25,748 bases of DNA. Origin: an uncultured Flavobacterium sp. (lineage in GTDB: Bacteria; Bacteroidota; Bacteroidia; Flavobacteriales; Flavobacteriaceae). Made by a program: the position numbers and the translations under genes. Shown here piece after piece: positions 7,157-23,159 of the stretch. Numbering within the stretch: the first letter of the stretch is position 1; every line of letters starts with the position of its first letter. The stretch lies in NCBI RefSeq assembly GCF_946481155.1, contig NZ_CAMLMK010000034.1, forward strand, positions 1 through 25,748, in the 5' to 3' direction. A model generated the notes under the pieces. That model saw nothing but the letters and a program-made list of their open reading frames with translations. It was not told where the DNA came from and did not search any database.

Positions 7157-7185
7157 AAGGTCTGGCGAAAGTCAGGCCTTTTTTT
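7157..7185 (+). terminator. Terminator between trxA and the sensor-kinase gene
   Basis: A 10-bp stem including T-G and G-T wobbles, closed by a GAAA tetraloop (7167-7170), followed by a T-run on the plus strand. It overlaps the stop codon of the minus-strand kinase gene (7184-7186). On the minus strand only short T stretches follow, so it is strongest for trxA and may act weakly for the kinase. Confidence 0.9.
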
Positions 7186-9232
7186 ATGCTAAAACCAAAG
7201 TGAATTTCGTACCGGTATTTTGGTTTATCGCGACGGTAATTTTACAGTCAATGGCTTTTGCCAGATCCCGGATCAGATGTAGGCCCAACCCTGTTTTTAT
7301 TCCGACAACCTCTTTTTCATCATATAAAGCTTTGAATTGTTCCTGGGTTCCGCCGGGGCCATTGTCGGTAATTGATAAATATTTTTGGCCATTTTCATGC
7401 CAGGCTTTCCATACAATACTGGCGTTTGATGTTTTTTCCAAAGCTTTGATAGCGTTTGCAGTCAGATTTCGGATTATGGTTTTCAGATAATTTTCATCAG
7501 TTATGAGCTGGAGATTTTCCGGATTTTCAAAAGTGATTTTCACATTCTCAACAGTAGCAAAATGATTTTTGATGTCTTCAAATATTGATTTCACCTCAGT
7601 ATTTTTAGGCTGAGGTTCGAAATTTTCCATCTGGCCTTTGCTCCACAGCAAAATATCTTCCATCGAATTTAAAAGATTTTCGGCACCGGCAATGGTTTTG
7701 TTTTCCATACGGGCTTTACTCTCTTCATCGAATAATTCCGGATTTTCTTTCTGCAGGTGTAAAAAATGGATGAGATTGGCGACCGGGCTTCTTAAGTCGT
7801 GATTCAAAATACTGAAAAATCGCATTTTGATTTTGTTCGCCTGATCTAATTCGGCGTTCAGGAGCTGCAGTTTTATATTGGTTCTTTTACGGTTGCTGTT
7901 TTGGCGGAATAATAAAGCTGCAATGGTTAGTAAAAGAAAGAAACCGACGGTTAAATAAATTTGCGTCTTGCGAGTATTCTGAATTTGAAGGCTTTTTACC
8001 TGATTTTCAGCGGAAAGCAGATTAATTTTTTCCTGTTTGGTGGTGTTCTGAAATTTTGCTTCAGCATTGGCGATACTTTGTTTAGCCGATTCTTTCAGCA
8101 ATTGCTCGTTGGCTTTGGTATAAATGGTTTGATAGTCAAAGGCTTTTTTCCAGTCGCCTAATTTGGCATAACTTTCCGAGAGCAGCTGGTTAATAATGAT
8201 AAAGGAATTCTTGTCGAATTCATAAGCATTGGTGGTAGCTTGCTGTAAGACAACAATCGCTTTTTCGAACTGCTTTCGTTTGAAGAGTAATTTTCCTTCT
8301 GTTATCTGGGCTTCCATCAGGATTTCGGCATCATTTGATTTTTTGGCCAAAATCAATGCTTTTTCTGCAAATTGTGTGGCTTTCTCAATATTTTCCTTTG
8401 CGATGTAATATTCGGCCATATAGCGGTTGGCGGAACTGCTGCTGATATGGAGCGAATCTTCGGGGGAAATCAGTTTGTAGATGCCGTTGTAGTATTTTGT
8501 AATGCTGTCCAGGTTTTGTTTTGCGGCATAGCATTTTATGTAATCGTTGTATAAAAAAGCTAAAGCATTCGCTGAAGTTTTCAGATACGGTTTTGCCAAA
8601 TTGGAATATTCAATCCCTTTGTCAAATTGTTTCATTTTAATGTATGCCTGTCCGATTTGCGAATAGGAAATACCAATGTTTACAATATTGTTGGCGTCAT
8701 CTTTCGGGAATTTTTTGCGGTATTCGATGGCCTTAAGTTTGTAGCCGATGAAGGGCTCAATTTCTGATTTATCGAGATAATATTCGCCCAGGCTGCCATT
8801 TAAGATGCCTTGTGTATAAATGCTTTTAGTAGTATCTAAAACTGTTTTTATGTAATTGATAAGTGCTTCCCGTTTCTGAAACTGTTTTGTGGAATAGTAC
8901 AGATAGTTCAGCCGCATTAAGGCTAAGGTTTCCTCTTTGAGATTCTTGTTCTTTTTCGCATAATTCCAGGAAGCTTCAAAATACGGGATCGCTTTTTCAT
9001 ACTGATTGTTATCGTATTCAAAACCATAGGCTTTATAAAAATTGAAGCGTGCCTGAAGATAGGAATTGCTGCCGAACAACCCGATGCCTTCTGTAGCCAA
9101 TGCGATTAACAGCCTGTATTTTTCATTGGTTTTCGCAGTTTCGCAGCGGATAAGCAATTCTGCTGCTTTTGGGTTTTGGCTGAAAAGCAAAAGAGGAAAA
9201 AACAAAAGTAAAATCAGTCCGATCTTTCTCAT
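7184..9232 (-). CDS. TPR-repeat membrane sensor histidine kinase (HisKA type)
   Basis: A sensor kinase of 682 residues. The N-terminal MRKIGLILLLFFPLLLFSQ is a signal peptide. Residues about 20-390 are helical tetratricopeptide-like repeats predicted to be periplasmic (for example 'GQAYIKMKQFDKGIEYSNLA', 'EGKLLFKRKQFEKAI'). A Gln/Asn/Lys-rich helical linker leads to one membrane helix (about 426-443, IYLTVGFFLLLTIAALLF). The cytoplasmic part has the phospho-acceptor H478 in ILNHDLRSPV, then the HATPase domain with NLTANAIKAL (N box), ITDNGPGG (G1) and GLGLHLI (G2). All kinase motifs look intact. Its ATG overlaps the stop of the LytTR regulator by 4 bp (ATGA), so the two are translationally coupled and presumably partners. 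The signal sensed by the TPR region is unknown. The last residues (TGTKFTLVLA) end inside the terminator stem. Confidence 0.92.
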   Translation of the reverse strand: MRKIGLILLLFFPLLLFSQNPKAAELLIRCETAKTNEKYRLLIALATEGIGLFGSNSYLQARFNFYKAYGFEYDNNQYEKAIPYFEASWNYAKKNKNLKEETLALMRLNYLYYSTKQFQKREALINYIKTVLDTTKSIYTQGILNGSLGEYYLDKSEIEPFIGYKLKAIEYRKKFPKDDANNIVNIGISYSQIGQAYIKMKQFDKGIEYSNLAKPYLKTSANALAFLYNDYIKCYAAKQNLDSITKYYNGIYKLISPEDSLHISSSSANRYMAEYYIAKENIEKATQFAEKALILAKKSNDAEILMEAQITEGKLLFKRKQFEKAIVVLQQATTNAYEFDKNSFIIINQLLSESYAKLGDWKKAFDYQTIYTKANEQLLKESAKQSIANAEAKFQNTTKQEKINLLSAENQVKSLQIQNTRKTQIYLTVGFFLLLTIAALLFRQNSNRKRTNIKLQLLNAELDQANKIKMRFFSILNHDLRSPVANLIHFLHLQKENPELFDEESKARMENKTIAGAENLLNSMEDILLWSKGQMENFEPQPKNTEVKSIFEDIKNHFATVENVKITFENPENLQLITDENYLKTIIRNLTANAIKALEKTSNASIVWKAWHENGQKYLSITDNGPGGTQEQFKALYDEKEVVGIKTGLGLHLIRDLAKAIDCKITVAINQNTGTKFTLVLA

Positions 9233-9933
9233 GCGATGAAACTCAAATTATCTTTATAGCTCCTTCCTACGGGAATAAGAACACTGTTGTTCAGTTCGAT
9301 TTCCTGTGTGCCGATCTTTTTGATGAATTGCTTCTGAACTGCAAAACTCCTATGAATCCGGATAAAAGATTGGAAATGAGATTCCTTCAGCAATGTTCCG
9401 ATGCTGGATAAAACGCAATGCCTTTTTTCTGAAGTTACTATGAGCGTATAATCTTTCAACGCCTCGAGATATAAAATATCATGAAGTTTTACTTTCGTTT
9501 GCTGATGGCCTTCTTTAATATAAATAGTATCGCCACCAATACTGGCTTCAAAAAGGGATGCCTTGAGCTTGATTTCCATAAATTCCCCAATGCGGCTCAT
9601 GGTTTGGGAAAAACGATCGAATTTCACCGGTTTTACTATAAAATCAAGAGTTTCCAGCTCAAAACTCTCTACGGCGTGTTCCGGATGAGACGTGATAAAT
9701 ACGCAAACCGGAATATGCATGGTTCTTTTTCGGAAATCCATACCACTCAGATTGGGCATGTCAATATCTAAGAAAAGGACATCAATTGCTTCTTTTTCGA
9801 TAATTGAAAGTGCTTCTTCAGCCGATTCAAAAATCCCAACGATATGGAGCTGCGGAAATTTTTTGGCATAAGAAACCACTGTCAATCTGTCGATTTCATC
9901 GTCATCAATAATTATACAATTTAACTTTTTCAT
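9229..9933 (-). CDS. LytTR-family response regulator
   Basis: A DNA-binding response regulator of 234 residues. The receiver domain (about 1-120) has the acidic triad D10/D11/D12 after KKLNCIII, the phospho-acceptor D56 in DVLFLDIDMP, the Ser/Thr switch (VFITSHPEHA) and the conserved Lys in DFIVKPVKF. The LytTR DNA-binding domain (about 135-234) has the characteristic IYLEALKDYTLIV, FIRIHRSFAV and IPVGRSYKDNL segments. I place the start at the ATG at 9933. The upstream in-frame ATG at 9954 would lie inside the predicted -7 element (9952-9959) and is not expected to be in the message. It is the first gene of the pair, followed with a 4-bp overlap by the sensor kinase. The divergent gene on the right is the repeat fibre, and the gap between holds a LytTR-like direct repeat. 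Confidence 0.93.
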   Translation of the reverse strand: MKKLNCIIIDDDEIDRLTVVSYAKKFPQLHIVGIFESAEEALSIIEKEAIDVLFLDIDMPNLSGMDFRKRTMHIPVCVFITSHPEHAVESFELETLDFIVKPVKFDRFSQTMSRIGEFMEIKLKASLFEASIGGDTIYIKEGHQQTKVKLHDILYLEALKDYTLIVTSEKRHCVLSSIGTLLKESHFQSFIRIHRSFAVQKQFIKKIGTQEIELNNSVLIPVGRSYKDNLSFIA

Positions 9934-9951
9934 AAGGGATTGCCACTGAAC

Positions 9952-9959
9952 CAAATGTA
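9952..9959 (-). promoter_or_regulatory. Promoter of the LytTR regulator-kinase operon, -7 element TACATTTG
   Basis: An exact TAnnTTTG match on the minus strand, about 19 bp before the ATG at 9933. No TTG is seen at standard spacing, which would suit a promoter that needs an activator. Confidence 0.5.
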
Positions 9960-10094: not shown

Positions 10095-13000
10095 ATGAAA
10101 AAATTGCTACTCATCCTTGGATTTTTTCTTACTTCCTTTGACGGATTTTCTCAGGTAGGAATCAATACAACAACGCCTAATGCCCAATTGGATATCAAAT
10201 CCAGCAATCAGGCGGCTCCTTCCAATACGGATGGGATCCTGATTCCGAAGATCGATGCCTTTCCTGCAGTGAATCCAACTGCTGCCCAAACCGGGATGAT
10301 GGTTTATCTGACGACAGTATCTGCAGGCAAACAGCCCGGGTTTTATTATTGGGATAATGGCACTTCAAGCTGGTCTGGAGTAAAAGGGAATGCTGGCTGG
10401 GAGCTAACGGGGAATAGCGCAACGGTTGACGGCACGCATTTTATCGGGACTACAGACAATAAGGCTTTAAACTTCAGAACCAATAATCAGAAAAGCGGGC
10501 GGATTGATCCGGGAGGAACAGTTTTCCTGGGTTATCTTGCGGGGAACAGCAATACTACGGGATTTAGAAATATCGCCATAGGATATAATTCTCTGATGGC
10601 AAACACGACGGGCAGTACCAATGTGGCGGTGGGTTCAGAATCGCTGTTTTCCAATAACGGTGGGAACTACAATGTGGCTATAGGTACTTTATCACTTGCA
10701 GCCAATACCACGGGACATTATAACACAGGAACCGGAAGTTATACGCTGTTTTCAAATACTATCGGTACCAATAACACCGCCTCCGGGTATGCGGCCTTGT
10801 ATTCTAACACGACAGGCTTCAGTAATACGGCTGTTGGCCATTCTTCTCTTTATAATAATACCACAGGAAATTACAACACCGCTGCCGGACATCTCTCTTT
10901 GCAGCTCAATACCACGGGGTACCACAATACTGCAGATGGGTTTTCTACGCTTCGATCTAACACCACAGGTTACAATAATACCGCGATGGGGTTTTCGGCA
11001 TTGTATAATAACAGCACCGGCTTTTCTAATACCGCTGTAGGTTATAATAGTTTATGGGGAAACACATTAGGGGTAGGCAATACCGCGGTTGGGGATTCTG
11101 CATTGCAAATTAATACCACAGGTTCAACAAATACGGCCACGGGAGGAAATGCACTTCGCAACAATACTGTTGGGGATGCGAATACGGCTAACGGATATAA
11201 TGCATTAACCACTAATACAACCGGAGGTTATAACGTTGCAGTGGGGTCTGCTGCTTTGCGTTTAAATACTACAGGTACTGATAATACTGTTGCCGGAGCA
11301 TTTTCGATGACCTCTAATACAACAGGATCCCAAAATACGGCAAATGGACGAAGCGCGATGTACTGGAATACCACAGGAGTACAGAATGTCGCAACAGGAT
11401 ATGAGGCTTTAAGAGACAATACAACAGGAAATTACAATACCGCCAGTGGCAGCCAGGCAATGAGCCGAAATACCACAGGAAGCAGCAATAGCGCTTCAGG
11501 TACGGATGCGTTGTACAACAATACCACCGGAAATACGAATACGGCTAACGGGGCGCAGTCACTTTATTCAAATACGTTGGGAAATAATAACGTGGCATCC
11601 GGTTATCATGCCCTGTATGCGAACACCACGGGTCTGTCCAACACTGCTTCAGGAACCAACGCATTGGCTACCAACACAGCAGGTATGGAAAATGTGGCCA
11701 CTGGTTATCAGGCATTAGGCTCCAGTACTACCGCCTCTTTCAATACAGCAACGGGTACATATGCTCTTGCCGTTACCACAACCGGAAGCGGAAACACTTC
11801 TAACGGATATCAATCACTATTTAACAATACAACAGGGAACGGGAATATCTCCATGGGGTCACAGACTCTGTACGGAAATACTACAGGCGCCTACAATACG
11901 GCTATTGGGAATTTTGCGTTATTTTCAAATACTGTAACGTCGAATCTCGTTGCTGTCGGATACCAGTCCTTATACAGCAATACAACCGGAACTTTTAATA
12001 CAGCCCTTGGGACACAATCGCTTTATTCAAATACTTCCGGAGCGGAAAATACAGCTGTGGGTTATAAATCGCTTTATTCCAATATCAATGCTATCCGAAA
12101 TACGGCTATAGGCTACCAGTCGCTGATGTCCAATACCTATGGTTCATTAAACACGGCTGTCGGACACAATGCATTATCCAGTAATACAGACGGCGATTAT
12201 AATGTGGCAGCCGGCGTTGCTGCTTTATCTACTAATACTTCCGGCAATGATAATATTGCCATAGGGTATTATGCTTTGGGCAGAAATACAACCGGGAGTA
12301 ACAACGTGGGTATCGGAAGTATAACCCTAAGGGAAAACACTACGGGACGTAGTAACACGGCAGTGGGATATGAAGCACTTCTTTCTAATACCACCGGAGA
12401 TGAAAATGCCGCTAATGGAGCTTTTGCGCTATATTATAATACCACCGGAGATTATAACACTGCAAGCGGGGCATATGCTCTTGTTTCCAATACCACCGGA
12501 ATTGAAAATGCCGCTCTGGGTCACCATGCTTTGCATTCCAATACGACAGGGAACAGCAATACGGCCGGCGGGGCAGAAGCTCTGTATTCGAACACTACAG
12601 GGAACAACAATGCAGGTTTCGGTTATAAGGCCTTGCGTGCTAATACTACAGGAACCGAAAATGCCGCGACCGGTTATTATGCATTGTATGGCAATACAAC
12701 CGGTATGGGAAACACTGCCAACGGAAGCAATTCCTTAGTTACTAATACAACAGGTAATTTCAACACGGCAGTGGGAGGGTATACGCTTTATGCCAATACA
12801 ACGGGAGGCTACAATACTACCATAGGTTATGGATCCTTATACTCGAACACGACAGGAAGCGAAAATACCGCGGCGGGATTAAACGCACTTTTTGCCAACA
12901 CCACCGGGACACAGAATACCGCGAGTGGGAATAATGCATTGACTAATAATACTACGGGAAGTAATAATTCTGCGACCGGTTGTCTTTCACTTAACAGAAA

Positions 13001-13865
13001 TTCAACAGGAAACAACAACACAGGTACGGGAAGAAGCGCTCTTTACTATAATACTACGGGATCCAACAATACTGCAACAGGCAAAGATGCTTTACTGAAC
13101 AATACTACCGGCTATAGCAACACGGCGAGTGGTTATACTGCTTTAGATCTGAATACGACCGGAAATAACAATACCGCTGTTGGAACAGGTGCTCTTTACA
13201 ATAATTCAACCGGTTTTCAAAATACTGCGTTTGGGTCCACAGCGCTTGATGTAGCTACAACCGGATCTTATAACACTGCGTTAGGATATAACACGGGCCC
13301 TAATACAAATAGTTTTTTTAATACCACCTGTTTAGGAATAGACGCTATCGCTACCGCCAGTAATTCGGTGCGCATCGGAAATACTTTTGTTACTTCAATA
13401 GGCGGCTACCAAAACTGGACAAACATTTCAGATGGTAGATTCAAGGAAGAGATTCAGGAAAATGTGCCGGGACTGACTTTTATAAACCGACTTCGTCCTG
13501 TAACGTATCGTCTGAACCGCAATAAGATAAACGATATGACGGGAGTAAATGCCCGAAAAAAAGATGGTGGTGATTCGCTTTCCGGTGATGCATATTCGGA
13601 AGTAACAACAGGTTTCATCGCCCAGGAAGTGGAGCAGGCCGCAAAAGCAAGCAACTTTGATTTCAGTGGGGTCGATAGCCCGAAAAACGAAAACGATTTC
13701 TATGGGTTGCGCTATGCAGAATTTGTAGTGCCATTAGTGAAAGCCGTTCAGGAACAACAAACAATCATTGTGCAGGAACAGGAAAAAAACAAACTGCTGG
13801 AGGACAAAGTCAAATCCCTTGAAGAAAGGTTAAAAGCAATCGAAGAAAAAGTAAATAAGCTATAA
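10095..13865 (+). CDS. Secreted repeat-fibre protein with C-terminal Peptidase_S74 (tail-fibre) chaperone domain
   Basis: A 1256-residue exported fibre. The signal peptide is MKKLLLILGFFLTSFDGFSQ. The head (about 21-152) opens VGINTTTPNAQLDI and includes GFYYWDNGTSSW and FIGTTDNKALNFRTNN, a layout typical of Bacteroidota 'tail fiber domain' proteins. Residues 153-1070 are 54 consecutive 17-residue units of the form NTTGxxNTAxGxxALxx with no insertions or deletions, probably a beta-solenoid or trimeric beta-prism stalk. A Peptidase_S74 domain begins at SDGRFK (S1112 and K1117, the Ser/Lys pair that performs self-cleavage in phage endosialidase chaperones) and includes FINRLRPVTYRLN and TTGFIAQEVEQA. 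The final ~45 residues are a coiled coil (LLEDKVKSLEERLKAIEEKV). No T9SS sorting domain is visible. No phage genes flank it, so a cell-surface or matrix fibre is more likely than a phage tail. It is divergent from a LytTR regulator that may control it. Confidence 0.9.
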   Translation: MKKLLLILGFFLTSFDGFSQVGINTTTPNAQLDIKSSNQAAPSNTDGILIPKIDAFPAVNPTAAQTGMMVYLTTVSAGKQPGFYYWDNGTSSWSGVKGNAGWELTGNSATVDGTHFIGTTDNKALNFRTNNQKSGRIDPGGTVFLGYLAGNSNTTGFRNIAIGYNSLMANTTGSTNVAVGSESLFSNNGGNYNVAIGTLSLAANTTGHYNTGTGSYTLFSNTIGTNNTASGYAALYSNTTGFSNTAVGHSSLYNNTTGNYNTAAGHLSLQLNTTGYHNTADGFSTLRSNTTGYNNTAMGFSALYNNSTGFSNTAVGYNSLWGNTLGVGNTAVGDSALQINTTGSTNTATGGNALRNNTVGDANTANGYNALTTNTTGGYNVAVGSAALRLNTTGTDNTVAGAFSMTSNTTGSQNTANGRSAMYWNTTGVQNVATGYEALRDNTTGNYNTASGSQAMSRNTTGSSNSASGTDALYNNTTGNTNTANGAQSLYSNTLGNNNVASGYHALYANTTGLSNTASGTNALATNTAGMENVATGYQALGSSTTASFNTATGTYALAVTTTGSGNTSNGYQSLFNNTTGNGNISMGSQTLYGNTTGAYNTAIGNFALFSNTVTSNLVAVGYQSLYSNTTGTFNTALGTQSLYSNTSGAENTAVGYKSLYSNINAIRNTAIGYQSLMSNTYGSLNTAVGHNALSSNTDGDYNVAAGVAALSTNTSGNDNIAIGYYALGRNTTGSNNVGIGSITLRENTTGRSNTAVGYEALLSNTTGDENAANGAFALYYNTTGDYNTASGAYALVSNTTGIENAALGHHALHSNTTGNSNTAGGAEALYSNTTGNNNAGFGYKALRANTTGTENAATGYYALYGNTTGMGNTANGSNSLVTNTTGNFNTAVGGYTLYANTTGGYNTTIGYGSLYSNTTGSENTAAGLNALFANTTGTQNTASGNNALTNNTTGSNNSATGCLSLNRNSTGNNNTGTGRSALYYNTTGSNNTATGKDALLNNTTGYSNTASGYTALDLNTTGNNNTAVGTGALYNNSTGFQNTAFGSTALDVATTGSYNTALGYNTGPNTNSFFNTTCLGIDAIATASNSVRIGNTFVTSIGGYQNWTNISDGRFKEEIQENVPGLTFINRLRPVTYRLNRNKINDMTGVNARKKDGGDSLSGDAYSEVTTGFIAQEVEQAAKASNFDFSGVDSPKNENDFYGLRYAEFVVPLVKAVQEQQTIIVQEQEKNKLLEDKVKSLEERLKAIEEKVNKL
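10551..13304 (+). repeat. 54 tandem 51-bp units coding the 17-residue fibre repeat
   Basis: The array is exactly 54 x 51 bp and lies wholly inside the fibre gene. The encoded unit is strongly conserved, with Asn1, Gly4, Asn7, Gly11 and Leu15 nearly invariant. The DNA copies differ at many silent positions: the NTTG codons alone appear as AATACTACGGGA, AACACGACGGGC, AATACCACAGGA and others. The most degenerate units are 24-25, 28 and 31. A partly related stretch continues for about two more units past 13304. Confidence 0.95.
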
Positions 13866-13902: not shown

Positions 13903-14796
13903 TTATATGTTTCTCAGGTTGATGATTTCCTGTTCAGTCAGAAAACGCCAGTTGCCACGCGGCAGGTTCTTTTTGGTCAGTCCGGCAAAAATAACGCGGT
14001 CGACTTTTAATACATCGTATTTCAAATGCTCAAAGATGGAACGTACCACTTTTACGTTTGACGATTTCATTTTAACTCCGATTTCGCTTTTAGGCTGATC
14101 CTCGATATAAGATACTTCTTCCACAGCAACGCGATGTCCATCGATAGTCATTCCGCCTGCAATTTTCTCCAAATCCTCGTATTTCAGGTTCTTATCCAAA
14201 GAAACCTGATACACTTTCGAAGAACGCTGGTTCGGAATGGTAAACTTGCGGATCATGTCGGTATCATTGGTGAACAGTAATAACCCTGTTGTGGTTTTGT
14301 CCATTCTTCCAACGGCCTGTAATTTTGCTTTTGTTGCGCCTCGTACCAAATCAAGTACGTTATTGGAATTCATGTCTTCTTCTTTTGAAGTCGTGAACCC
14401 TTTTGGCTTGTTCAGTAAAACGTACTCTTTTTTCTCCGGTGTAATTAAGCTTCCGTCAAAGTTTACTACATCATTTAACTGTACTTTGTAGCCCATTTCG
14501 GTAATTACTTCGCCATTGACTTTTACATTCCCCGATTGGATATAGATATCCGCATCACGGCGTGAGCAGACACCAGAGTTCGCAATATATTTGTTCAGAC
14601 GGATTTCATCCGGATTGGCAGGTTTTTTCGGTGCCTTTGGTTTTTTATCGAAAGCAGGTTTCGCTTTTGGGAAACCCGTTTTTTTATCATCTTTTTTGAA
14701 GGTAGCTTTAGCTGAAGCACTTGGCTTCTTTGCAGTGCCTCCCGCTTTTCTTGGCGACGACGTTTTTTTATTATTATTTCCTTTTCCGTTATTCAT
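13903..14796 (-). CDS. Pseudouridine synthase, RsuA/RluB family, with basic N-terminal extension
   Basis: An rRNA pseudouridine synthase of 297 residues. Residues 1 to about 62 are a low-complexity Lys/Ala/Pro/Asn-rich extension that could help bind rRNA. An S4 RNA-binding domain follows (about 64-112: IRLNKYIANSGVCSRRDAD, VKVNG). The catalytic domain starts with YVLLNKPKGF and has the signature GRMDKTTTGLLLFTND, where D166 is the nucleophilic Asp (family pattern GRLDxxTxGLLL). A later YQVSL segment also fits. This is the family of RsuA (16S U516) and RluB/E/F (23S). RluB is the likeliest by general form, but the target base cannot be read from the sequence. It is the last gene of the minus-strand run from mvaD, but a TATCTTTG element just upstream suggests its own promoter. 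Confidence 0.92.
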   Translation of the reverse strand: MNNGKGNNNKKTSSPRKAGGTAKKPSASAKATFKKDDKKTGFPKAKPAFDKKPKAPKKPANPDEIRLNKYIANSGVCSRRDADIYIQSGNVKVNGEVITEMGYKVQLNDVVNFDGSLITPEKKEYVLLNKPKGFTTSKEEDMNSNNVLDLVRGATKAKLQAVGRMDKTTTGLLLFTNDTDMIRKFTIPNQRSSKVYQVSLDKNLKYEDLEKIAGGMTIDGHRVAVEEVSYIEDQPKSEIGVKMKSSNVKVVRSIFEHLKYDVLKVDRVIFAGLTKKNLPRGNWRFLTEQEIINLRNI

Positions 14797-14812
14797 TTCA
14801 CTATAATTTTTG

Positions 14813-14820
14813 CAAAGATA
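14813..14820 (-). promoter_or_regulatory. Promoter of the pseudouridine synthase gene, -7 element TATCTTTG
   Basis: An exact TAnnTTTG match on the minus strand, 16 bp before the ATG at 14796. It implies a very short leader. No TTG is at standard spacing. Confidence 0.5.
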
Positions 14821-14834
14821 GTGTTTAAAAGCAT

Positions 14835-14864
14835 TAGAAGTTAAAAATCAGCGGCTAGAAGTTA
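14835..14864. repeat. Spaced direct repeat TAGAAGTTA, 21 bp apart
   Basis: Identical 9-mers at 14835-14843 and 14856-14864. The second overlaps the UbiA-family gene's stop codon. The function is unknown, and it may be low-complexity intergenic sequence. Confidence 0.4.
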
Positions 14865-15779
14865 CAATCGCAACAGTGTCCTTCCATTCACCAAAACCAT
14901 CGGATCGATAAGGACAATGGAGAAAACACCTGCAACGATTATCAACTTGAGCACATTGTGCAATTGAACATACTCATAATGGGTTTCCGATTTCCAAAGT
15001 TTAAGAAGGAAGAAAATCAACACAATCAGGCTTACGTAGAAGTAAATGTCCATATAGCCCACATCGTATTTGTCAATCAGGATAAACACTGGGAGTATAG
15101 TGGAAATCGTCAGTGCCGTAATGACTTGTTTCGAAACTTTTTCGCCAAAACGAACCGGAATCGTCTGATAATTATTAGCTACATCGCCTTTTATGTTTTC
15201 AAGATCCTTAATCATTTCACGGATTAAAATTAAGAGGAACAAGAAGGTGGCGTGTGCAAAAATGACATGATAGAAATTTTTAAAGTAGAGCAAAATCCCA
15301 AAGAAAGGCAAGATGGCCAAAAATGAAGCCGTAAGGTTGCCGATAATTGGGTATTTCTTAAGCTTGTGCGAATAGAACCAGATAAGGAAGATGTACGTCG
15401 CAAAAAATAGAGCGGCACGCCATGAAATAATGTAAGCTAAAGCGGTAGCCAGGAAATTCAGGCCAAAATAGACCTGCAGTTTTGTTTTCTGACTCACGAG
15501 TCGGTCCAACATCGATTTGTTCGGACGGTTGATTAAGTCTTTCTCCGAGTCGTAGAAATTATTGATGATGTAACCCGAAGCAATCGTTAATGTCGAAACA
15601 AAAACAATGATAAATAACCGCCAATCAAGGATGACGTCAAGAGCGCGTTTTTCGGGAGCCAATATAAAGATTGACGATAAATACTGCGCCAGGACAATAA
15701 TAGGAATATTATAACCACGCACCACAGAAAATAAACTGAGGATTTTCATCAAGAACATTTTTGATTTTCTTGTGAGCAT
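14862..15779 (-). CDS. UbiA-family membrane prenyltransferase (geranylgeranylglycerol-phosphate geranylgeranyltransferase-like)
   Basis: An integral membrane prenyltransferase of up to 305 residues. It has the first Asp-rich motif of UbiA enzymes, NNFYDSEKDLINRPNK (N73, D77, D81), which binds the prenyl diphosphate through Mg. The second motif is in IKDLENIKGDVANNYQTIPVRFG. Seven to nine hydrophobic segments follow one another (RLFIIVFVSTLTIASGYII, AALFFATYIFLIW, ATFLFLLILI). Flavobacterial proteins of this type are commonly annotated as geranylgeranylglycerol-phosphate geranylgeranyltransferase, an archaeal-lipid-like step. Menaquinone or heme-type activity is possible, so the acceptor is not decided. 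Starts at residues 8 or 11 (MKILSLFSVVRGYNI) are also possible and fit the family's usual N-terminus better. It lies 59 bp downstream of the mevalonate kinase gene, consistent with use of the isoprenoids made by that pathway. Confidence 0.85.
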   Translation of the reverse strand: MLTRKSKMFLMKILSLFSVVRGYNIPIIVLAQYLSSIFILAPEKRALDVILDWRLFIIVFVSTLTIASGYIINNFYDSEKDLINRPNKSMLDRLVSQKTKLQVYFGLNFLATALAYIISWRAALFFATYIFLIWFYSHKLKKYPIIGNLTASFLAILPFFGILLYFKNFYHVIFAHATFLFLLILIREMIKDLENIKGDVANNYQTIPVRFGEKVSKQVITALTISTILPVFILIDKYDVGYMDIYFYVSLIVLIFFLLKLWKSETHYEYVQLHNVLKLIIVAGVFSIVLIDPMVLVNGRTLLRL

Positions 15780-15785
15780 GATTAT

Positions 15786-15817
15786 AGTCTAAAGTGGAAA
15801 GTCGTCAAGTCTAAAGT
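15786..15817. repeat. Spaced direct repeat AGTCTAAAGT, 22 bp apart
   Basis: Identical 10-mers at 15786-15795 and 15808-15817 fill the short gap upstream of the UbiA-family gene. An additional AAAGTC lies between them. It may be a regulatory pair or simple-sequence drift. Confidence 0.4.
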
Positions 15818-15838
15818 CTTAAATTATCTGCAGAAAAC

Positions 15839-16777
15839 TTAAAACTGATACACTACTTCCAATTTGTAATCTTTTAAAGAAGCTTTGGCTTTCTCAAAAT
15901 CCTGCGTAAAACCAAGGATATAACCGCCGCCGCCGGAACCGCAAAGTTTCAGGTAATAATCGTTGGTGTCAATTCCTTTTTGCCAAACCTGGTGGAATTG
16001 CTCCGGAATCATTGGTTTAAAGTTGTTCAAAACCACTTTGGAAAGTTTTTTGGTGTTCGCAAAAAGTGATTTCATATCGCCATGAAGGAAATTCTCCACA
16101 CAGGCATCGGTGTATTTTATGAATTGGGATTTCAGCATTTTCCGGAAGCCTTCTTCTTTCAGGTTTTCCATGAAGATGGTTACCATCGGAGCCGTTTCGC
16201 CCACAATCCCTGAGTCAATCAAGAAAACGGCACCTTTGCCCGACGCGCTTTGCGAAGGAATTCCGGTGGGTTCGATATTGTCCTGAGAATTGATTAAAAT
16301 CGGAAGGCTCAAATAGCTGTTCAGCGGATCTAAGCCAGAACTTTTTCCGTGAAAAAAGGATTCCATCTGCGAGAAGATCGCTTTTAGCTGCAACAATTTC
16401 TCACGGGTCAGGTTTTCCAGCACCGTAATCTTATTTGCTGCATATTTATCGTAAATCGCCGCTACCAAAGCACCGCTGCTTCCTACGCCATATCCTTGCG
16501 GTATACTGGAATCGAAATACATGCCGCGCTCCACATCGGCTTTCAGAAGCTCTAAATTGAATGTTACTAACCCGGGCTGTTCGTTCTGCACGTTTTCAAG
16601 ATGCGTTACAAAACGTTTCAGACTGGCATTGGATTTCAACGCTTCTTCCGACGGATTTTCATCCACTTTCAAAGCACCGTTATAAAAATTATAAGGAATA
16701 GACAACCCTTTAGAATCCTTGATGATTCCGTACTCTCCGAAGAGTAATATTTTTGAGTAAAAAAGCGGTCCTTTCAT
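15839..16777 (-). CDS. mvk: Mevalonate kinase (GHMP kinase family)
   Basis: A GHMP-superfamily sugar/isoprenoid kinase of 312 residues. Motif 1 is FYSKILLFGEYGII near the N-terminus. Motif 2, the ATP-binding glycine loop, is PQGYGVGSSGALVAAIY. Motif 3 is LCGSGGGGYILGF near the C-terminus. The order and spacing fit mevalonate kinase, which phosphorylates mevalonate at C5. The adjacent diphosphomevalonate decarboxylase supports a mevalonate-pathway role. Phosphomevalonate kinase belongs to the same superfamily and cannot be fully excluded from sequence alone. The start ATG at 16777 gives MKGPLFYSKILLFGEYG, with the first motif at its usual place. A 54-bp gap without a recognisable promoter or terminator separates it from mvaD upstream, so co-transcription is likely. 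Confidence 0.85.
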   Translation of the reverse strand: MKGPLFYSKILLFGEYGIIKDSKGLSIPYNFYNGALKVDENPSEEALKSNASLKRFVTHLENVQNEQPGLVTFNLELLKADVERGMYFDSSIPQGYGVGSSGALVAAIYDKYAANKITVLENLTREKLLQLKAIFSQMESFFHGKSSGLDPLNSYLSLPILINSQDNIEPTGIPSQSASGKGAVFLIDSGIVGETAPMVTIFMENLKEEGFRKMLKSQFIKYTDACVENFLHGDMKSLFANTKKLSKVVLNNFKPMIPEQFHQVWQKGIDTNDYYLKLCGSGGGGYILGFTQDFEKAKASLKDYKLEVVYQF

Positions 16778-16831
16778 ATATTGTTTTTGGTTTAAACGTT
16801 GGATCCAGACTTAAGTAAATGTAGTGAAAAA

Positions 16832-17917
16832 TCAAATACGATTTACAGCGCCATGGCCAATTTCGTCACAAATGTACTGACCATTTTGACAATAGCCAAC
16901 TAATTCGTTCTTAATAAATTGTAAAACAGTTTCTTTTGTATTTTCAGGATATAAAACATGGACATTGGCCCCGGCATCAAGTGTAAAACACACCGGAACT
17001 TGCGTCTCAGTTCTATATTTCCAGATTTTATTGATGATCTCCAATGTATTGGGTTTCATCAGGATAAAATAGGGCATCGACGTCATCATCATGGCATGAA
17101 GGGTCAATGCTTCGCTTTCCACGATTTTGATGAAATTTTCTATATCTCCGCTTTCCAGAACGCTCTTTATGGCCGATAAATTGTGATGGGCCTGAGAAAA
17201 ACGCTGTTCCGCAAACGGGTGGCCAAACATCAGGTCGTGACCCACCGTGCTTGATACTTGTTTTTCGCCTTTATCGACAAGAAGAATCGTATCCTGATAC
17301 TTTTTGAAATTAGAATGAACCGAAGAAGGAAATTCCACTCCGAATAAATCGGAACTGCCCTGAATTTCGGCATGATTCCCCCAAACTACAATGCTTCCTT
17401 TTACGCTTCGGCAGGCACTTCCGGAACCTAATCTTGCTAAAAAAGAGGCTTTTTCATAGAAATAGTCTTCTGTGATTTCCGGATGCAAATTTTTTTCCAG
17501 ACTCATAATGTTCATGGCCAAAGCCGCCATTCCTGAAGCCGAAGAAGCAATTCCGGAGCTGTGCGGAAAGGTGTTTTGCGTATCAATCGTGAAATGAAAA
17601 TCTTTCAGATAAGGGCAATATTCGAAAATACGCTCGAAGAATTTTTGGATTTTAGGTTTGAAATCTTCTTTGGGCTGGCCTTCAAAAAGCAAATCGAAAG
17701 AAAAACTTCCATCATTTATTTTCTTTGCGAAAGCCAATTTTGTAATGGTTTTGCAATTGTTCAGCGTAAAACTGATTGACGGATTTGCCGGTATCTGGTT
17801 GTCTTTTTTGCCCCAATATTTTACCAGGGCAATGTTGCTTGGCGCACTCCATTCAAAGCTTCCGTTTTCAACTGAAATGGTATAGTTGTTTTGGATAAAA
17901 TTCTTTTCAAAAATCAT
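16832..17917 (-). CDS. mvaD: Diphosphomevalonate decarboxylase
   Basis: Catalyses ATP-dependent decarboxylation of mevalonate 5-diphosphate to isopentenyl diphosphate, the last step of the mevalonate pathway. The protein (361 residues) has the signature WSAPSNIALVKYWGKKD with the conserved Lys, followed by PSISFTLNNCKT. It also has the glycine/serine ATP loop PHSSGIASSASGMAALA, the SGSACRS segment, and the catalytic Asp in FTLDAGANVHVLY. I use the ATG at 17917, giving MIFEKNFIQNNYTISVENG. The longer frame reaching 18025 adds 36 residues, crosses the TATCTTTG element at 17937-17944 and overlaps the divergent TspO gene, so it is not credible. It is the first gene of the minus-strand isoprenoid cluster. 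Confidence 0.94.
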   Translation of the reverse strand: MIFEKNFIQNNYTISVENGSFEWSAPSNIALVKYWGKKDNQIPANPSISFTLNNCKTITKLAFAKKINDGSFSFDLLFEGQPKEDFKPKIQKFFERIFEYCPYLKDFHFTIDTQNTFPHSSGIASSASGMAALAMNIMSLEKNLHPEITEDYFYEKASFLARLGSGSACRSVKGSIVVWGNHAEIQGSSDLFGVEFPSSVHSNFKKYQDTILLVDKGEKQVSSTVGHDLMFGHPFAEQRFSQAHHNLSAIKSVLESGDIENFIKIVESEALTLHAMMMTSMPYFILMKPNTLEIINKIWKYRTETQVPVCFTLDAGANVHVLYPENTKETVLQFIKNELVGYCQNGQYICDEIGHGAVNRI

Positions 17918-17936
17918 AAAACCTGAAAAATTTAAG

Positions 17937-17944
17937 CAAAGATA
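17937..17944 (-). promoter_or_regulatory. mvaD promoter, -7 element TATCTTTG
   Basis: An exact TAnnTTTG match on the minus strand, 19 bp before the chosen mvaD ATG. It decides the start codon. No TTG is at standard spacing. Confidence 0.55.
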
Positions 17945-17995
17945 CATTTTTAGACTGTTCGATTGGTAAATGCGCGGGTTTCTGTAGTTTTTTCC

Positions 17996-18003
17996 TATTT
18001 TTG
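17996..18003 (+). promoter_or_regulatory. Promoter of the TspO/MBR gene, -7 element TATTTTTG
   Basis: An exact TAnnTTTG match 16 bp before the ATG. It is divergent from the mvaD -7 element 52 bp away, so the two promoters share a compact intergenic region. Confidence 0.5.
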
Positions 18004-18019
18004 AACATAATTTACTCTG

Positions 18020-18496
18020 ATGCAAAAAATCACCCGAATTCTTACTGTTGTCGTTACCTGTTTGTGCATAGGTTATTTTTCCGGATTGGTAATCCGCGAA
18101 AGCGTTGAAATCTGGTTTCCGACATTAGTGAAGCCGAGTTTCACCCCGCCCAATTGGGTTTTCGCCCCGGTCTGGTCAACGTTGTACATCATGATGGGTG
18201 TCGCGGCAGGACTGGTTTGGAACCGCATGGAAACCGATAAGGGCAATGTTCGAAAAGGGTTATTGTTTTTTGCGATTCAGCTGGCGCTTAATTTTTTATG
18301 GTCGTATCTTTTCTTCGGATTACACAATCCTCTTGTGGCCCTGGTGGAACTTATGCTGCTGTGGCTGATGATTTATGAAACCTACCTTCAGTTTAAAAAA
18401 ATTGACAAAATTGCCGGAATGCTGCTGCTGCCTTATTTAGGCTGGGTAGCTTTTGCCGGAATCTTAAACGCAAGTATTTTTTGGTTAAACCGCTAA
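18020..18496 (+). CDS. tspO: TspO/MBR family membrane protein (tryptophan-rich sensory protein)
   Basis: A 158-residue membrane protein with five predicted helices. The TspO signature is clear: KPSFTPPNWVFAPVWSTLYIMMGVAAGLVWNR, with its cluster of Pro, Trp and Phe, followed by LNFLWSYLFFGLHNPLVAL and LPYLGWVAFAGILNASIFWLN. These conserved Trp/Pro segments define the family, whose members bind porphyrins and sterol-like ligands; the physiological role in flavobacteria is unknown. Length and helix number are normal. It is transcribed divergently from mvaD across a short gap, which could mean shared regulation of isoprenoid and tetrapyrrole-related functions, though that is only inference. No clear terminator follows in the 167-bp gap before the next gene. 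Confidence 0.93.
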   Translation: MQKITRILTVVVTCLCIGYFSGLVIRESVEIWFPTLVKPSFTPPNWVFAPVWSTLYIMMGVAAGLVWNRMETDKGNVRKGLLFFAIQLALNFLWSYLFFGLHNPLVALVELMLLWLMIYETYLQFKKIDKIAGMLLLPYLGWVAFAGILNASIFWLNR

Positions 18497-19272: not shown

Positions 19273-20382
19273 TTATTCTTTTATAATTTTTTCTCTTGTA
19301 ATGTCTTTATCAGTAACTATTTCAACAAAATAAATTCCTTTTTTCAAATTACTAACATCTATTTTTTGTTCAGAATTACTGTTCTTGAATGTTTCTTTTT
19401 TCTGTACAGCATTCGAATTGTCAAAAATAGTTACGGCCATTAATTTTTCATTTTCACTAACCTTGATTGTAACTGTTTCTTTCACCGGATTAGGAAAAAT
19501 AAGGTTGCTTGTTTTAAATTTAATCGGGTCTTGTTCCAATTCATTCATGCAGGTCATAAAGTTTTTCGTGAAACTGTAATTCGTCCAACCGTATGCTGTA
19601 TTTGGAATTGTATAAGTTAAACTTTGGCCATGTATCGACGTACTTCTGTATTGCATTGTAACGGTATAGGTTGTTGCTGCATTACAATCATAAAATTCGG
19701 CGCCGTAACTCGGTAAAGTGTTTGTTGGCAAAGATGAATCTAAGCTTAAAAGGGTCAATTTGGTATCCGGGTAGCTGGTGCAGCCGCTAAGAACTTCCAA
19801 ATACAATTTACTGGCATTTACGTAGCTTCCAAATATTTTAAATCCAATATAGCCATTGTATAAATTGTTGCTGTTTTTTTTGCAATAACCGTTTAAGGTT
19901 AGCGAAAGGGATGGGGATGCTTCTTTAACCACATTAATATCGATTAACTGAGTGTTACAGAATTGTGACCCACAATAGCTTTTTACAGTGTAATTATGAT
20001 GCCCAAGAGATAAACCGCTTGGAATGGTATAAGTATGGGAAGCATAAGAAACTCCGTTGACATTGATTGTGCCATAGGTGTCTGATTGAGGGAAAGGATA
20101 ATCACAAAAGGTATTGGTTCTAAGCTGCAATGTTCCCAGTAATGAATTTTCGTAAAACGGAATCGTTACCGTATAGGTTTTATAGGTATCTACTCCATTT
20201 GATGTTCCTGAGCTAACCAGTGAAACAGCATTGGTCTGAATGCTTCCGTTTAGATTTGAAATTGTAAAATTAACCTGGTTCTGATTTTGACAAATTACTT
20301 GCGCTATTGAAGCTTCAGAAATACCAAAAACAGATAGCCCCAAACACAATTTGGCTACAACATTTAAAATAGTTTTTTTCAT
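19273..20382 (-). CDS. Secreted protein with T9SS type A C-terminal sorting domain
   Basis: An exported protein of 369 residues and unknown function. MKKTILNVVAKLCLGLSVFG begins a signal peptide that ends near IAQ (about residue 28). The middle (about 30-285) is rich in Ser, Thr, Tyr and Asn, with scattered Cys (for example NTFCDYPFP, YCGSQFCNTQ, LSGCTSYP), suggesting extracellular beta-sandwich modules that could carry disulfides. The last ~75 residues are a type IX secretion sorting domain: LIFPNPVKETVTIKVSEN, MAVTIFDNSNAV, IDVSNLKKGIYFVEIVTDK, ending REKIIKE. Such domains direct export across the outer membrane and are removed or used for surface attachment. I do not recognise the passenger. 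It lies downstream of the membrane LytTR regulator, with a 200-bp gap carrying three GTGAC boxes. Confidence 0.88.
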   Translation of the reverse strand: MKKTILNVVAKLCLGLSVFGISEASIAQVICQNQNQVNFTISNLNGSIQTNAVSLVSSGTSNGVDTYKTYTVTIPFYENSLLGTLQLRTNTFCDYPFPQSDTYGTINVNGVSYASHTYTIPSGLSLGHHNYTVKSYCGSQFCNTQLIDINVVKEASPSLSLTLNGYCKKNSNNLYNGYIGFKIFGSYVNASKLYLEVLSGCTSYPDTKLTLLSLDSSLPTNTLPSYGAEFYDCNAATTYTVTMQYRSTSIHGQSLTYTIPNTAYGWTNYSFTKNFMTCMNELEQDPIKFKTSNLIFPNPVKETVTIKVSENEKLMAVTIFDNSNAVQKKETFKNSNSEQKIDVSNLKKGIYFVEIVTDKDITREKIIKE

Positions 20383-20406: not shown

Positions 20407-20414
20407 CAAAACTA
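20407..20414 (-). promoter_or_regulatory. Promoter of the T9SS protein gene, -7 element TAGTTTTG
   Basis: An exact TAnnTTTG match on the minus strand, 24 bp before the ATG at 20382. No TTG is at 17-23 bp, so this may be an activator-dependent promoter. The first GTGAC box begins about 40 bp upstream of it. Confidence 0.5.
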
Positions 20415-20451
20415 GAAGCAGCAATTCTGTATGCCGTAAGAAAAATAGGCT

Positions 20452-20530
20452 TTGTGACGAATCCTATATAAAATAGTGACTAAAATGATAATCTTTTGCT
20501 TACACAAAAAAGATTCTGTGACAAATCTTT
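20452..20530. promoter_or_regulatory. Three GTGAC-centred boxes upstream of the T9SS protein gene
   Basis: GTGAC occurs at 20454, 20476 and 20518, spaced 22 and 42 bp, so all three fall on nearly the same face of the helix. Boxes 1 and 3 are extended: TGTGACGAATCCT and TGTGACAAATCTT agree at 10 of 13 bases. Box 2 (TAGTGACTAAAAT) is weaker. The spacing is typical of LytTR-type tandem sites, and the gene upstream codes for a LytTR protein. The box sequence itself does not match the general LytTR consensus well. Confidence 0.45.
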
Positions 20531-20582: not shown

Positions 20583-23159
20583 TTAAAAAACTATTTTATT
20601 TAACTCCGATAAATAGGTTTCACCTACTGGTATTTCCTGTTGTCCAATGAAAATGGATTTTCTCGTTTTCTGTTCCACTTTGTCTATTCGGATAATATAG
20701 GAGCGGTGGATTCTCAGAAATTCAAAAGGATCGGGAACCTGTGTTATAAAATCTCCAATTTTACAACGTACGGTATAGGTTTTTGCGGCCGTAACGATAT
20801 CAATATAGTTTCCGGATGATTTAATATAGAAAATGGTTTCCGTTTTTACACGGATATCCTTGCCTTGTTCCCTAAATTTGAAATACTTCTCATTCCGGCG
20901 TATTTTTTTCACCATCAAGCGCAGGAGTTCCCGGATAATATCTTCGTTGTACGTAAGGACGCGGATTTTAAAGAACAGATAAATAACGGATCCGGAGAGA
21001 CAAACAACCATCAACAGGAACCACCATGTTTTCCAGAAAGGTTCGTTTATGTGTATGGGCAACATAATTTTTTCAGTGGAAAAAAGCCGGTTGTCTTCCA
21101 ATACCTGAACTATTAAAGTGTAATTCCCCGGTGGTAAAAATTCATAGGAAATTTTCCGGTTAGCAGTGAAATTCCAGTTTCTATGAAGGCCTTCGAGTTT
21201 GTACCGGTACAGGAGATCTTTATTGTTAAAGGATACCGATTCAATAAAAAAGTCCAGCTGATTTTCGTTGTGCTTTAAGTCCAGCTGATGGTGCAGTTGA
21301 TTTTCTTTTTTATTGTTTATCGCGATTTTCTTTAATCGGAGAAAATAGTTTCTTTGGGAAAACAGCGCTGTGAAATTCTGCATTGAAAAACTGCAAAGTC
21401 CGTTCGTGGTGCCGGCATAGATCGTATCGCCAATGATTTCAACGTCTCTAATCTGGTTTTCGGACAAGCCGTCTGCTGTAGTAATGTAGTTGACTTTGTA
21501 ATTGCCATCGTTGAAAAATTGAATCCTGTTTAGGCCATAATTGGTACAGGCCCAGATCACATTTTCATTCTCAATATACACCTCGGTTACTAAATCATTT
21601 GAAAGCCCTTTGGATTTATCAATATTGAAAACCTTTTCATTCTTTGGATTGTACACAATCACTCCGCCTCCTAAACTCGCCAGATAAAATAATTTCCTTT
21701 TAGGTTCATAGTCAATATCATCAATTCTGAAATTCAGAAGTGGATTTGTTTTTTCTTTGAGTACGCCTTTATCGCGTACTTTCAGCCCTTTTATGGTAGC
21801 CAGAAAATATTTGCCGTCGGCTTCTGAAATATCGTGAATCCGGAAAGTAAGGGTGTCCGAAAATATTTCCTCTTTTTTTGCCAAGACATTATATACGCCG
21901 TAGCGAACCAGGATTAAATTATCATTATCGTCGGACATTTTCAGGAGCCCAAGGTATTTTACTTCTCTTTCGAAAGAATTGAAAACCATGTTGTCTGATG
22001 AAAAATAAGTAGTGTTTTCAGGACGGGAGTATTGCACTAAGGCCGGTCTGTTTTGTATTCCTGCATGTATTTTCGAAACTGTTCCTTTTTGGTCTATCTT
22101 ATAGATGTCGCCATTGTAACATCCTGAATATAAATTGCCGACATTATCTTTTGTCAACGAATTAATGTTCAGATTCTGTAAAAGGGCATTGTTTATTTTC
22201 TTTTTCTTTACCTGAAATATGCCTGCGTCGGTAGTTGAGAACCACAGGGAACCGTAGCTGTCTTTAAAAACTTCCGTAACAGAATGGTTGTTGAGGTATT
22301 TTTTTAGCAAATTTCCTTTATAATCATAAATCCAAACGCCTTTTCCCCTGTAGGAAATCCAAAGATGATCCGCATCAAAAAGACCACACTCTATAGGTTC
22401 ATGATTTGGTTGCGAGATTTGAATTGCATTTTGATTCTTTACATGCAGGAATACTGATTTTTCCGTAAAAAGTATTTTTCGGTTTTTGCCGGCGTCTATA
22501 ATCCGCTTTGTCGATTCGTCGGTTTTTGTTTTGATAAACCCGGAAGGAGCTGCGGACAGGTAGCTTATAACCTGCTTTTTGTTTATTGCAAAGGTGTGGA
22601 TGTATTTTCTTGCCTGCGTTCTTTGCAGTTCGGCAGGCTTTGTTGACAATTGATTTGTTTTTATCGAAAGTTGGCCTTGAGCATCAATCCGGATATACAT
22701 GCCGCCATTGGTAACAATATGCAGCGTTCCTTTTTTATCGACGGCCAGATCATTGACGAAGAAATAAGAAAATTTGATATTGTTAATTAATTTTTCAATT
22801 ACAGAATTGTATTTATAGGGAATAAACTTTGAAGAACCGTCGTCGAAATAAAATAGTTTATTGTTAAAAGTGATGCACCAGACCTGTCCGTTTTCCTGAG
22901 GGAAAAAATCAAAAATGGTAATGTCTGTCAATCCGTGCTTGGGTTCGAATTTCTTAAACTCATGTCCGTTGTAGCTGGCTAATCCTCTGTCGGTTGCAAA
23001 CCAAAGAAAACCATTTTTATCCTGAAAAATATCGTAGACTTCATTGCTTGGCAAACCGTCTTTATGTGTGAAGTTTTTAAGGTCGGTTTCCTGTGCCGTG
23101 CTGAGGTGGCTGAAAAATAAGAATGCGACTAGATTGCAGAAAAAATAGTTGAATGACAT
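20583..23159 (-). CDS. Transmembrane propeller-Y_Y_Y-LytTR regulator without kinase or receiver
   Basis: An 858-residue membrane-bound transcription factor candidate. A signal peptide (MSFNYFFCNLVAFLFFSHLS, end near residue 22) is followed by two-component-regulator propeller blades, seen as repeated 'GLPSNEVYDIFQDKNGFLWF', 'GSLWFSTTDAGIFQV', 'GLSNDLVTEVYIENENVIWA' and 'GLSENQIRDVEI' units. A Y_Y_Y-type immunoglobulin-like domain follows (about 640-705, LEGLHRNWNFTANRKISYEF, LPPGNYTLIVQV). One membrane helix (about 713-735, WWFLLMVVCLSGSVIYLFF) leads through a short linker to a LytTR DNA-binding domain (about 755-857: TIFYIKSSGNYIDIV, FLRIHRSYIIRIDKVE, IPVGETYLSELN). No H-box, HATPase or receiver sequence is present, so the periplasmic sensor would act directly on DNA. 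It lies 59 bp downstream of the flavoprotein gene and upstream of the T9SS protein gene on the same strand. Confidence 0.9.
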   Translation of the reverse strand: MSFNYFFCNLVAFLFFSHLSTAQETDLKNFTHKDGLPSNEVYDIFQDKNGFLWFATDRGLASYNGHEFKKFEPKHGLTDITIFDFFPQENGQVWCITFNNKLFYFDDGSSKFIPYKYNSVIEKLINNIKFSYFFVNDLAVDKKGTLHIVTNGGMYIRIDAQGQLSIKTNQLSTKPAELQRTQARKYIHTFAINKKQVISYLSAAPSGFIKTKTDESTKRIIDAGKNRKILFTEKSVFLHVKNQNAIQISQPNHEPIECGLFDADHLWISYRGKGVWIYDYKGNLLKKYLNNHSVTEVFKDSYGSLWFSTTDAGIFQVKKKKINNALLQNLNINSLTKDNVGNLYSGCYNGDIYKIDQKGTVSKIHAGIQNRPALVQYSRPENTTYFSSDNMVFNSFEREVKYLGLLKMSDDNDNLILVRYGVYNVLAKKEEIFSDTLTFRIHDISEADGKYFLATIKGLKVRDKGVLKEKTNPLLNFRIDDIDYEPKRKLFYLASLGGGVIVYNPKNEKVFNIDKSKGLSNDLVTEVYIENENVIWACTNYGLNRIQFFNDGNYKVNYITTADGLSENQIRDVEIIGDTIYAGTTNGLCSFSMQNFTALFSQRNYFLRLKKIAINNKKENQLHHQLDLKHNENQLDFFIESVSFNNKDLLYRYKLEGLHRNWNFTANRKISYEFLPPGNYTLIVQVLEDNRLFSTEKIMLPIHINEPFWKTWWFLLMVVCLSGSVIYLFFKIRVLTYNEDIIRELLRLMVKKIRRNEKYFKFREQGKDIRVKTETIFYIKSSGNYIDIVTAAKTYTVRCKIGDFITQVPDPFEFLRIHRSYIIRIDKVEQKTRKSIFIGQQEIPVGETYLSELNKIVF

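Follow-up and report, generated by a model that had tools for sequence, protein, structure and literature searches.

Sensor parts composed of beta-propellers and a Y_Y_Y domain are best known from two-component proteins, and in the membrane-inserted regulators ToxR and CadC the DNA-binding domain is a winged helix. The present study deals with a gene in a stretch of 25,748 nucleotides from an uncultured Flavobacterium sp. (contig NZ_CAMLMK010000034.1; the whole stretch is hereafter called the window), in which a periplasmic sensor of this type is joined through one membrane helix to a LytTR DNA-binding domain. It is probable (about 0.77) that the gene product is a one-component, phosphorylation-free membrane receptor, which possesses a private predicted operator and directly activates the neighbouring gene from the membrane. 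This reading is built on computed observations, namely the domain architecture, the lack of known kinase and receiver domains, repeats recurring at a defined spacing, their co-occurrence with the receptor and the exported look of most adjacent targets.

Membrane-held LytTR regulators (CoxC, HigX) and transmembrane regulators with Y_Y_Y domains are already known. CoxC, presented in 2024 as prototype of the membrane LytTR one-component regulators, is described as a membrane sensor with a C-terminal LytTR domain and no kinase, and the direct repeats that it binds are separated by about two helical turns, a spacing like that of the operator predicted here. However, CoxC is a repressor that uses a seven-helix MHYT gas sensor and binds the half-site TTNNNGCN in an operator over the -35 region, whereas the receptor of the window has one transmembrane segment, a large periplasmic part and no MHYT, and its predicted half-site is TTCRTCAC (PMC11347149). 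Similarly, the LytTR domain is reported to be membrane-anchored in HigX and other Caulobacter transmembrane factors, published in 2026, and the N-terminal membrane part of this type to be required for promoter regulation; these factors contain a four-helix bundle without periplasmic domain, and the alpha-proteobacterial membrane LytTR proteins are described as having no periplasmic part for extracellular sensing, whereas our receptor does have a periplasmic part (PMC13384398). In the LRS-like operons of Bacteroides, membrane protein and regulator are reported as products of separate genes and the repeats precede their own operon, while in the window sensor and LytTR form one protein and the repeats precede a neighbouring gene (PMC6193735). 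The genes adjoining the receptor encode an HI0933-like flavoprotein and a type IX secretion system (T9SS) cargo, so that the separate membrane inhibitor of LRS systems is not found beside it. The receptor shares with ToxR/CadC-like proteins the arrangement of one polypeptide, membrane segment and inner DNA-binding domain, and it falls under the published definition of transmembrane transcription regulators as single proteins with a DNA-binding domain and at least one transmembrane segment, among which Y_Y_Y is reported in 7.7%, hybrids included (PMC10269533).

Architecture of the receptor and its family

A preliminary description of the gene, made from the sequence alone, had proposed a signal peptide, propellers, a Y_Y_Y domain and one membrane helix leading straight to LytTR, and this order was borne out by Pfam, hydropathy and an AlphaFold2 model. 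The matches to Reg_prop (49.6 bits), Y_Y_Y (45.1 bits) and LytTR (52.4 bits, cut-off 22.6) all exceed the curated Pfam cut-offs, and LytTR is the sole DNA-binding domain detected by the scan. Hydropathy in 19-residue windows rises above 1.4 only for starts at residues 708 and 710-719. The signal peptide stays below this threshold; its assignment to residues 1-22 is probable from the sequence, a model helix at residues 4-17 and a near-invariant Q23 following ...STA. The model was made for protein P0001, which is the receptor itself or nearly identical to it (a single residue difference to the window protein was noticed); its predicted local distance difference test score (pLDDT) is 84.5, and it displays the propellers, the sandwich, the transmembrane helix, one 15-residue helix (739-753) and the LytTR fold. 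Foldseek returned the sensor domains 4a2l (BT4663) and 3v9f (BT3049) of B. thetaiotaomicron as best matches over the sensor, with a similar periplasmic double propeller and Y_Y_Y domain; those proteins are titled hybrid two-component systems, whereas the membrane helix of the receptor leads directly to LytTR.

The Pfam scan gave no match to HisKA, HATPase_c or Response_reg in the receptor at E<=1 and none to MHYT, while it does detect HATPase_c and Response_reg in a nearby two-component pair. About 27 residues separate the transmembrane helix from the first LytTR strand, in line with the linker of roughly 20-30 residues expected beforehand, and in the model this stretch holds the single 15-residue helix and no two-helix hairpin able to be a cryptic H-box. 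The proposed absence of H-box, HATPase and receiver was thereby upheld, and the receptor does not belong to the histidine kinases or hybrid two-component proteins, given that HisKA and HATPase are missing and only one short helix lies between membrane and LytTR. With LytTR instead of a winged helix, it might possibly work in a ToxR-like manner but is no member of the ToxR family.

Homologues with the same architecture were collected and their neighbours compared, as had been suggested, and a large family emerged, with the same target cluster downstream in four relatives. At E<=1e-3, 2472 homologues were found among 7992 scored. All of the 120 matches listed, P0001 among them, contain LytTR and 118 combine Reg_prop, Y_Y_Y and LytTR, whereas according to their precomputed Pfam annotation none of these 120 contains a receiver or kinase domain. 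Because the listed homologues share LytTR and the domain set, the receptor gene is no mis-join, and the frameshift or assembly error considered in the preliminary description can be discarded. Detected at E<=1e-60, the receptor occurs in at least 7 of 299 Flavobacterium, at least 16 of 397 family and at least 6 of 395 order genomes, these counts being lower bounds since at most 2-3 candidates per genome were scored. Hence, the architecture is a large, real and patchily distributed family and no rarity of one genome. In this regard, it appears highly improbable that the protein is a fusion or degenerate kinase without own function; such an origin would agree with the match of its sensor to the hybrid two-component sensors BT4663 and BT3049, but it is at odds with full-length conservation over many homologues and with the recurring predicted site described below.

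The conservation is highest next to the membrane. In an alignment of 35 of the 120 listed proteins (A1; P0032, P0035 and P0038-P0120 left out), residues 729-757 have a mean identity of 82% with 8 of 29 columns invariant, compared to 59% in the propellers, 61% in the membrane helix and 78% in LytTR; Y737, N738, D740, R743, E744 and R747 are among the invariant residues. The preliminary description had left the choice between activation by dimerisation and by proteolytic release. The 82% identity favours dimerisation or signalling mediated by the helix, i.e. it suggests that the juxtamembrane segment is no neutral tether, and disfavours release. Regulated proteolysis, in which a protease would cut at the membrane and the freed LytTR would act as soluble factor, is therefore considered unlikely: the low model confidence at the junction 733-737 might mark a flexible cut site, and a direct repeat would equally suit a soluble LytTR domain, but a stretch that outranks the propellers in conservation and holds invariant residues would be unusual for a disposable tether.

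A recurring direct repeat and predicted promoter beside the receptor gene

Between the receptor and its downstream gene lies the predicted operator GTCACTATTTTATATAGGATTCGTCACAAA (20451-20480). It has the form GTCAC-N17-GTCACAAA, its second half starts 44 bp before the putative -7 box TAGTTTTG, and RTCAC-N17-RTCAC occurs once in the window (20454-20480; mean of 0.05 in shuffles). The composite operator-promoter pattern likewise has one match in the window and none in 100 shuffles.

This repeat recurs in relatives. From 79 loci, 28 (L001-L027, L032) and the window were analysed together with 20 later regions, leaving 47 loci after removal of the duplicates L159 and L162 and 45 after exclusion of L023 and L025, which have no LytTR; truncated receptors such as L021, L146 and L160 were included. 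Of these 45 non-redundant LytTR-bearing loci, 25 have an RTCAC-N16/17-RTCAC pair no more than 500 bp away from the receptor, compared to a mean of 0.2 and a maximum of 2 loci in 200 dinucleotide shuffles of the flanks. The density of pairs is 54-fold higher in the flanks (39 matches in 44,036 bp) than in the remainder of the loci (10 in 612,078 bp). Pair spacing in the flanks peaks at 21 bp (19 pairs) and 22 bp (20 pairs), with smaller groups at 42-43, 53 and 64 bp. In a motif-free count of exact 5-mer repeats in the flanks, GTCAC spaced by 21 bp ranks first (8 loci); GTCAC spaced by 22 bp and GACGA spaced by 21 bp come next with 7 loci each. The pair was found in 14 of 27 loci used for motif discovery and in 11 of 18 loci fetched afterwards. 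The predicted sites differ in position: some follow the receptor gene, some are divergent to it and others are found at another place in the genome. L022 and L145 carry arrays of four RTCAC elements spaced 21/21/22 bp, in keeping with a possible further GTCAC element in the window (Table 1). Seven loci (L005, L147, L148, L150, L152, L153, L154) possess a pair with a 21-bp period 47-66 bp upstream of the receptor start and facing away from it, which may serve receptor autoregulation; a 22-bp pair follows exactly 100 bp further toward the divergent gene in L005, L148, L150, L153 and L154, and at 109 bp in L147. Tandem receptor-like genes of 910 and 901 aa were observed in L013 (611-6076), where an operator-like pair is found 2.8 kb after the first.

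The distance to the putative promoter recurs as well. Among 26 promoter-proximal sites, obtained from the 39 near matches by removing the more distal pairs of the same array with a purpose-written rule, TAnnTTTG begins 43-45 bp after the start of the second RTCAC exactly in 16 cases and with one mismatch in 8, while 2 show neither; scoring used the best match within 40-48 bp of that start. The start codon usually follows about 70-80 bp beyond the pair. An equal geometry is reported for the LytTR-linked repeats of Bacteroides, which consist of 11 bp, an 11-bp gap, 11 bp, an 11-bp gap, TGTA, 19 bp and TATCTTTG (Table 3 of PMC6193735); these direct repeats lie just upstream of the promoter, and their 22-bp period and 45-bp distance to TATCTTTG are the same as in the operator-promoter predicted here. 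The ToxR/CadC-like mode envisaged in the preliminary description gains support from this operator-promoter, since it adjoins the receptor gene and recurs in relatives. Alternatively, the receptor might be a repressor freeing the promoter upon signal, as is reported for the membrane LytTR one-component regulator CoxC, the operator of which overlaps the -35 region (PMC11347149). We regard repression as improbable, because about 36 bp separate the end of the repeat (RTCACAAA) from the -7 box, like in activator-type LytTR promoters, and no conserved -33 TTG was seen across the 26 promoter-proximal sites, as an activator-dependent promoter would predict.

Table 1. Positions of the receptor gene, its protein regions, the predicted regulatory elements and the predicted target in the window
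Feature	Position	Strand	Remark or basis
Predicted target, secreted protein of 369 aa with a T9SS type A sorting domain (295-369)	19273..20382	-	TIGR04183, PF18962
Putative Bacteroidota -7 box TAGTTTTG (TAnnTTTG)	20407..20414	-	starts 44 bp after second GTCAC start
Predicted operator, direct repeat GTCACTATT...TTCGTCACAAA, RTCAC start-to-start 22 bp	20451..20480	-	pattern match, recurrence
Possible extra GTCAC element, preceding the pair by 42 bp (2 x 21)	20518..20522	-	sequence
Receptor-regulator gene	20583..23159	-	858 aa, ATG start; Reg_prop propellers, Y_Y_Y, transmembrane helix, LytTR
LytTR DNA-binding domain, residues 759-858	20586..20885	-	PF04397 (769-856), model strands from 759
Conserved segment after the membrane helix, residues 732-757, including helix 739-753	20889..20966	-	identity and model
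Single transmembrane helix, residues 712-731	20967..21026	-	hydropathy and model helix
Y_Y_Y domain, residues 645-690	21090..21227	-	Pfam (PF07495, 45.1 bits)
Periplasmic double beta-propeller, about residues 24-620	21300..23090	-	Reg_prop, model, Foldseek matches
Signal peptide, residues 1-22, predicted cleavage before Q23	23094..23159	-	sequence, Q23, model helix 4-17

Specificity of the site and its predicted targets

Searches of whole genomes link the site to the receptor. The strict site pattern has one match each, beside the receptor, in the genomes of L001, L002, L004 and L006 (G001, G002, G004, G005) and four in that of L003, two of them in the receptor locus; no match was found in the remaining four of the nine genomes searched. 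A looser pattern matches within 2.5 kb of the receptor in each of the 7 Flavobacterium genomes where a receptor was detected, but also occurs in 59 of 292 without one, the genome sets of the receptor, looser-pattern and composite searches being taken as identical. The composite pattern is present in 6 of 7 genomes with a detected receptor versus 12 of 292 without (Fisher p 1.3e-7). When RTCACT and RTCACAAA are both required, as read from the match list, the numbers become 6 of 7 versus 0 of 292 (Fisher p 7.4e-12), the matches of the 12 genomes without a detected receptor lacking RTCACAAA. Altogether, 18 of 35 receptor genomes hold 26 composite matches, some of which are not adjacent to the receptor; the L026 genome has none beside its receptor and two elsewhere, of which the first (L177) precedes the gene of a secreted repeat protein and the second (L187) has no open reading frame (ORF) behind it.

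These numbers also bear on the question to whom the operator belongs. Another regulator, e.g. a soluble LytTR response regulator, might own it, with the receptor feeding into that pathway or being co-regulated. A LytTR response regulator with a TPR histidine kinase is indeed encoded in the window (7184-9954), and Flavobacterium can hold many such regulators, 20 being given for F. johnsoniae UW101 (Table 2 of PMC5395568). Nevertheless, another owner seems quite improbable in view of the strict operator-promoter in 6 of 7 receptor genomes versus 0 of 292 without detected receptor, and because the predicted site is found with receptors whose target families differ and, in the case of L022, with a receptor whose neighbours differ too.

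Several observations weigh against a private operator and direct control of the neighbouring gene. No RTCAC pair was found within 500 bp in 20 of the 45 LytTR-bearing loci, and 17 of the 35 receptor genomes have no composite match. The pairs are concentrated in the group of the window protein in the receptor tree (22 of 28 loci versus 3 of 17 outside; midpoint-rooted, support values not taken into account), and none of the three site-bearing loci outside that group has an exact -7 box. Absence of the receptor rests on at most 2-3 candidates per genome, hence some receptors may have been missed. Four of the 26 composite matches (L170, L181, L185, L187) face no ORF or only one of 37 aa, and for L163, whose site is close to the receptor, no ORF was found that the site faces. 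Finally, a distant homologue of the window's target in G201 (31% identity) is encoded remote from the receptor gene, and no operator of this type precedes it.

The target of each site was defined as the next ORF that it faces. In the window, this is a secreted protein whose sorting domain scores 46.3 bits for TIGR04183 (cut-off 23) and 54.7 bits for PF18962, identifying it as a type A cargo. Its gene cluster is also downstream of the receptor in L001, L002, L006 and L022, the neighbours in L022 otherwise being different. The N-terminal 280 residues were matched in 4 of the 239 Flavobacterium genomes searched; a receptor was detected in each of these four, one of which is G201. Among ten targets picked for scanning, six pass the type A sorting-domain cut-off and others resemble lipoproteins by eye, the one in L005 having a cadherin domain above cut-off. 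By a crude N-terminal rule, 21 of 24 adjacent targets are classed as exported compared to 141 of 333 background ORFs, the background comprising ORFs of at least 150 aa and some targets being shorter; the L151 target (71 aa), counted as exported, rather resembles a small membrane protein. The three non-exported ones are Kordia peptides (L007, L008, L032), and the targets of Kordia (also L178, L186) are small peptides. One of four scanned, that of L178, matches a class I lanthipeptide leader (31.5 bits, cut-off 22), and the L186 peptide is nearly identical to it. It is possible that a membrane LytTR receptor controls a ribosomally synthesised and post-translationally modified peptide in Kordia.

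Some further features were noticed beside these sites. On the reverse strand of L199, upstream of a 357-aa ORF, a different promoter-like block GAAACCCGAAAAACCAAT...GAGTAGGG and a near copy precede a small GG peptide and a T9SS-like protein, and its repetition suggests another shared regulator. In the window, the TPR histidine kinase and LytTR response regulator genes (7184-9954, reverse strand) overlap by 4 bp, with the regulator ORF listed with a TTG start, and the forward strand next to them (10095-13865) encodes a protein of 1256 aa, the C-terminal part of which is a Peptidase_S74 (endosialidase chaperone) domain. The genes at 13903-18025 (reverse strand) for a pseudouridine synthase, a UbiA prenyltransferase, a GHMP kinase and a diphosphomevalonate decarboxylase are ordinary.

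Proposed mode of action and its meaning

From these observations, we infer direct binding, dimerisation, activation rather than repression and action from the membrane. The propeller/Y_Y_Y part would read a periplasmic signal, and signal binding would alter the receptor dimer. Because sensor and LytTR share one chain, this change would be relayed by the juxtamembrane helix through the single membrane helix. Two LytTR domains would then occupy the direct repeat with its TTCRTCAC half-sites two helical turns (21-22 bp) apart, an arrangement that fits a receptor dimer, since LytTR proteins are reported to bind such repeats (PMC11347149). The location of the site upstream of the promoter fits activation, and the membrane-held receptor would then activate RNA polymerase at a TAnnTTTG promoter, with 43-45 bp between the start of the promoter-proximal half-site and that of the -7 box downstream of it. 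In the window, the activated promoter would be that of the next gene for the T9SS-secreted protein. A closed loop from surface to gene without phosphorylation is also conceivable, in which receptor, operator and adjacent exported protein would make up one self-sufficient cassette and the receptor would sense the fate, product or ligand of the surface protein or peptide that it controls. Receptor and operator would stay the same from cassette to cassette while the target would be exchanged (T9SS cargo, lipoproteins, small GG-leader-like peptides); this extension is doubtful.

What appears to be new is the union of LytTR and a large periplasmic sensor in one receptor, together with a predicted operator and target; no description of this combination was found in the open-access literature. 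A sensor type best known from two-component proteins here appears to control a promoter directly. Hence, one gene pair and a 30-bp site would allow a test of how a factor held in the membrane locates and activates the gene that it controls. Moreover, the operator pattern can reveal targets in further genomes, and the proposed mechanism offers a prediction of how Flavobacteriia switch on some T9SS cargo proteins and small peptides.

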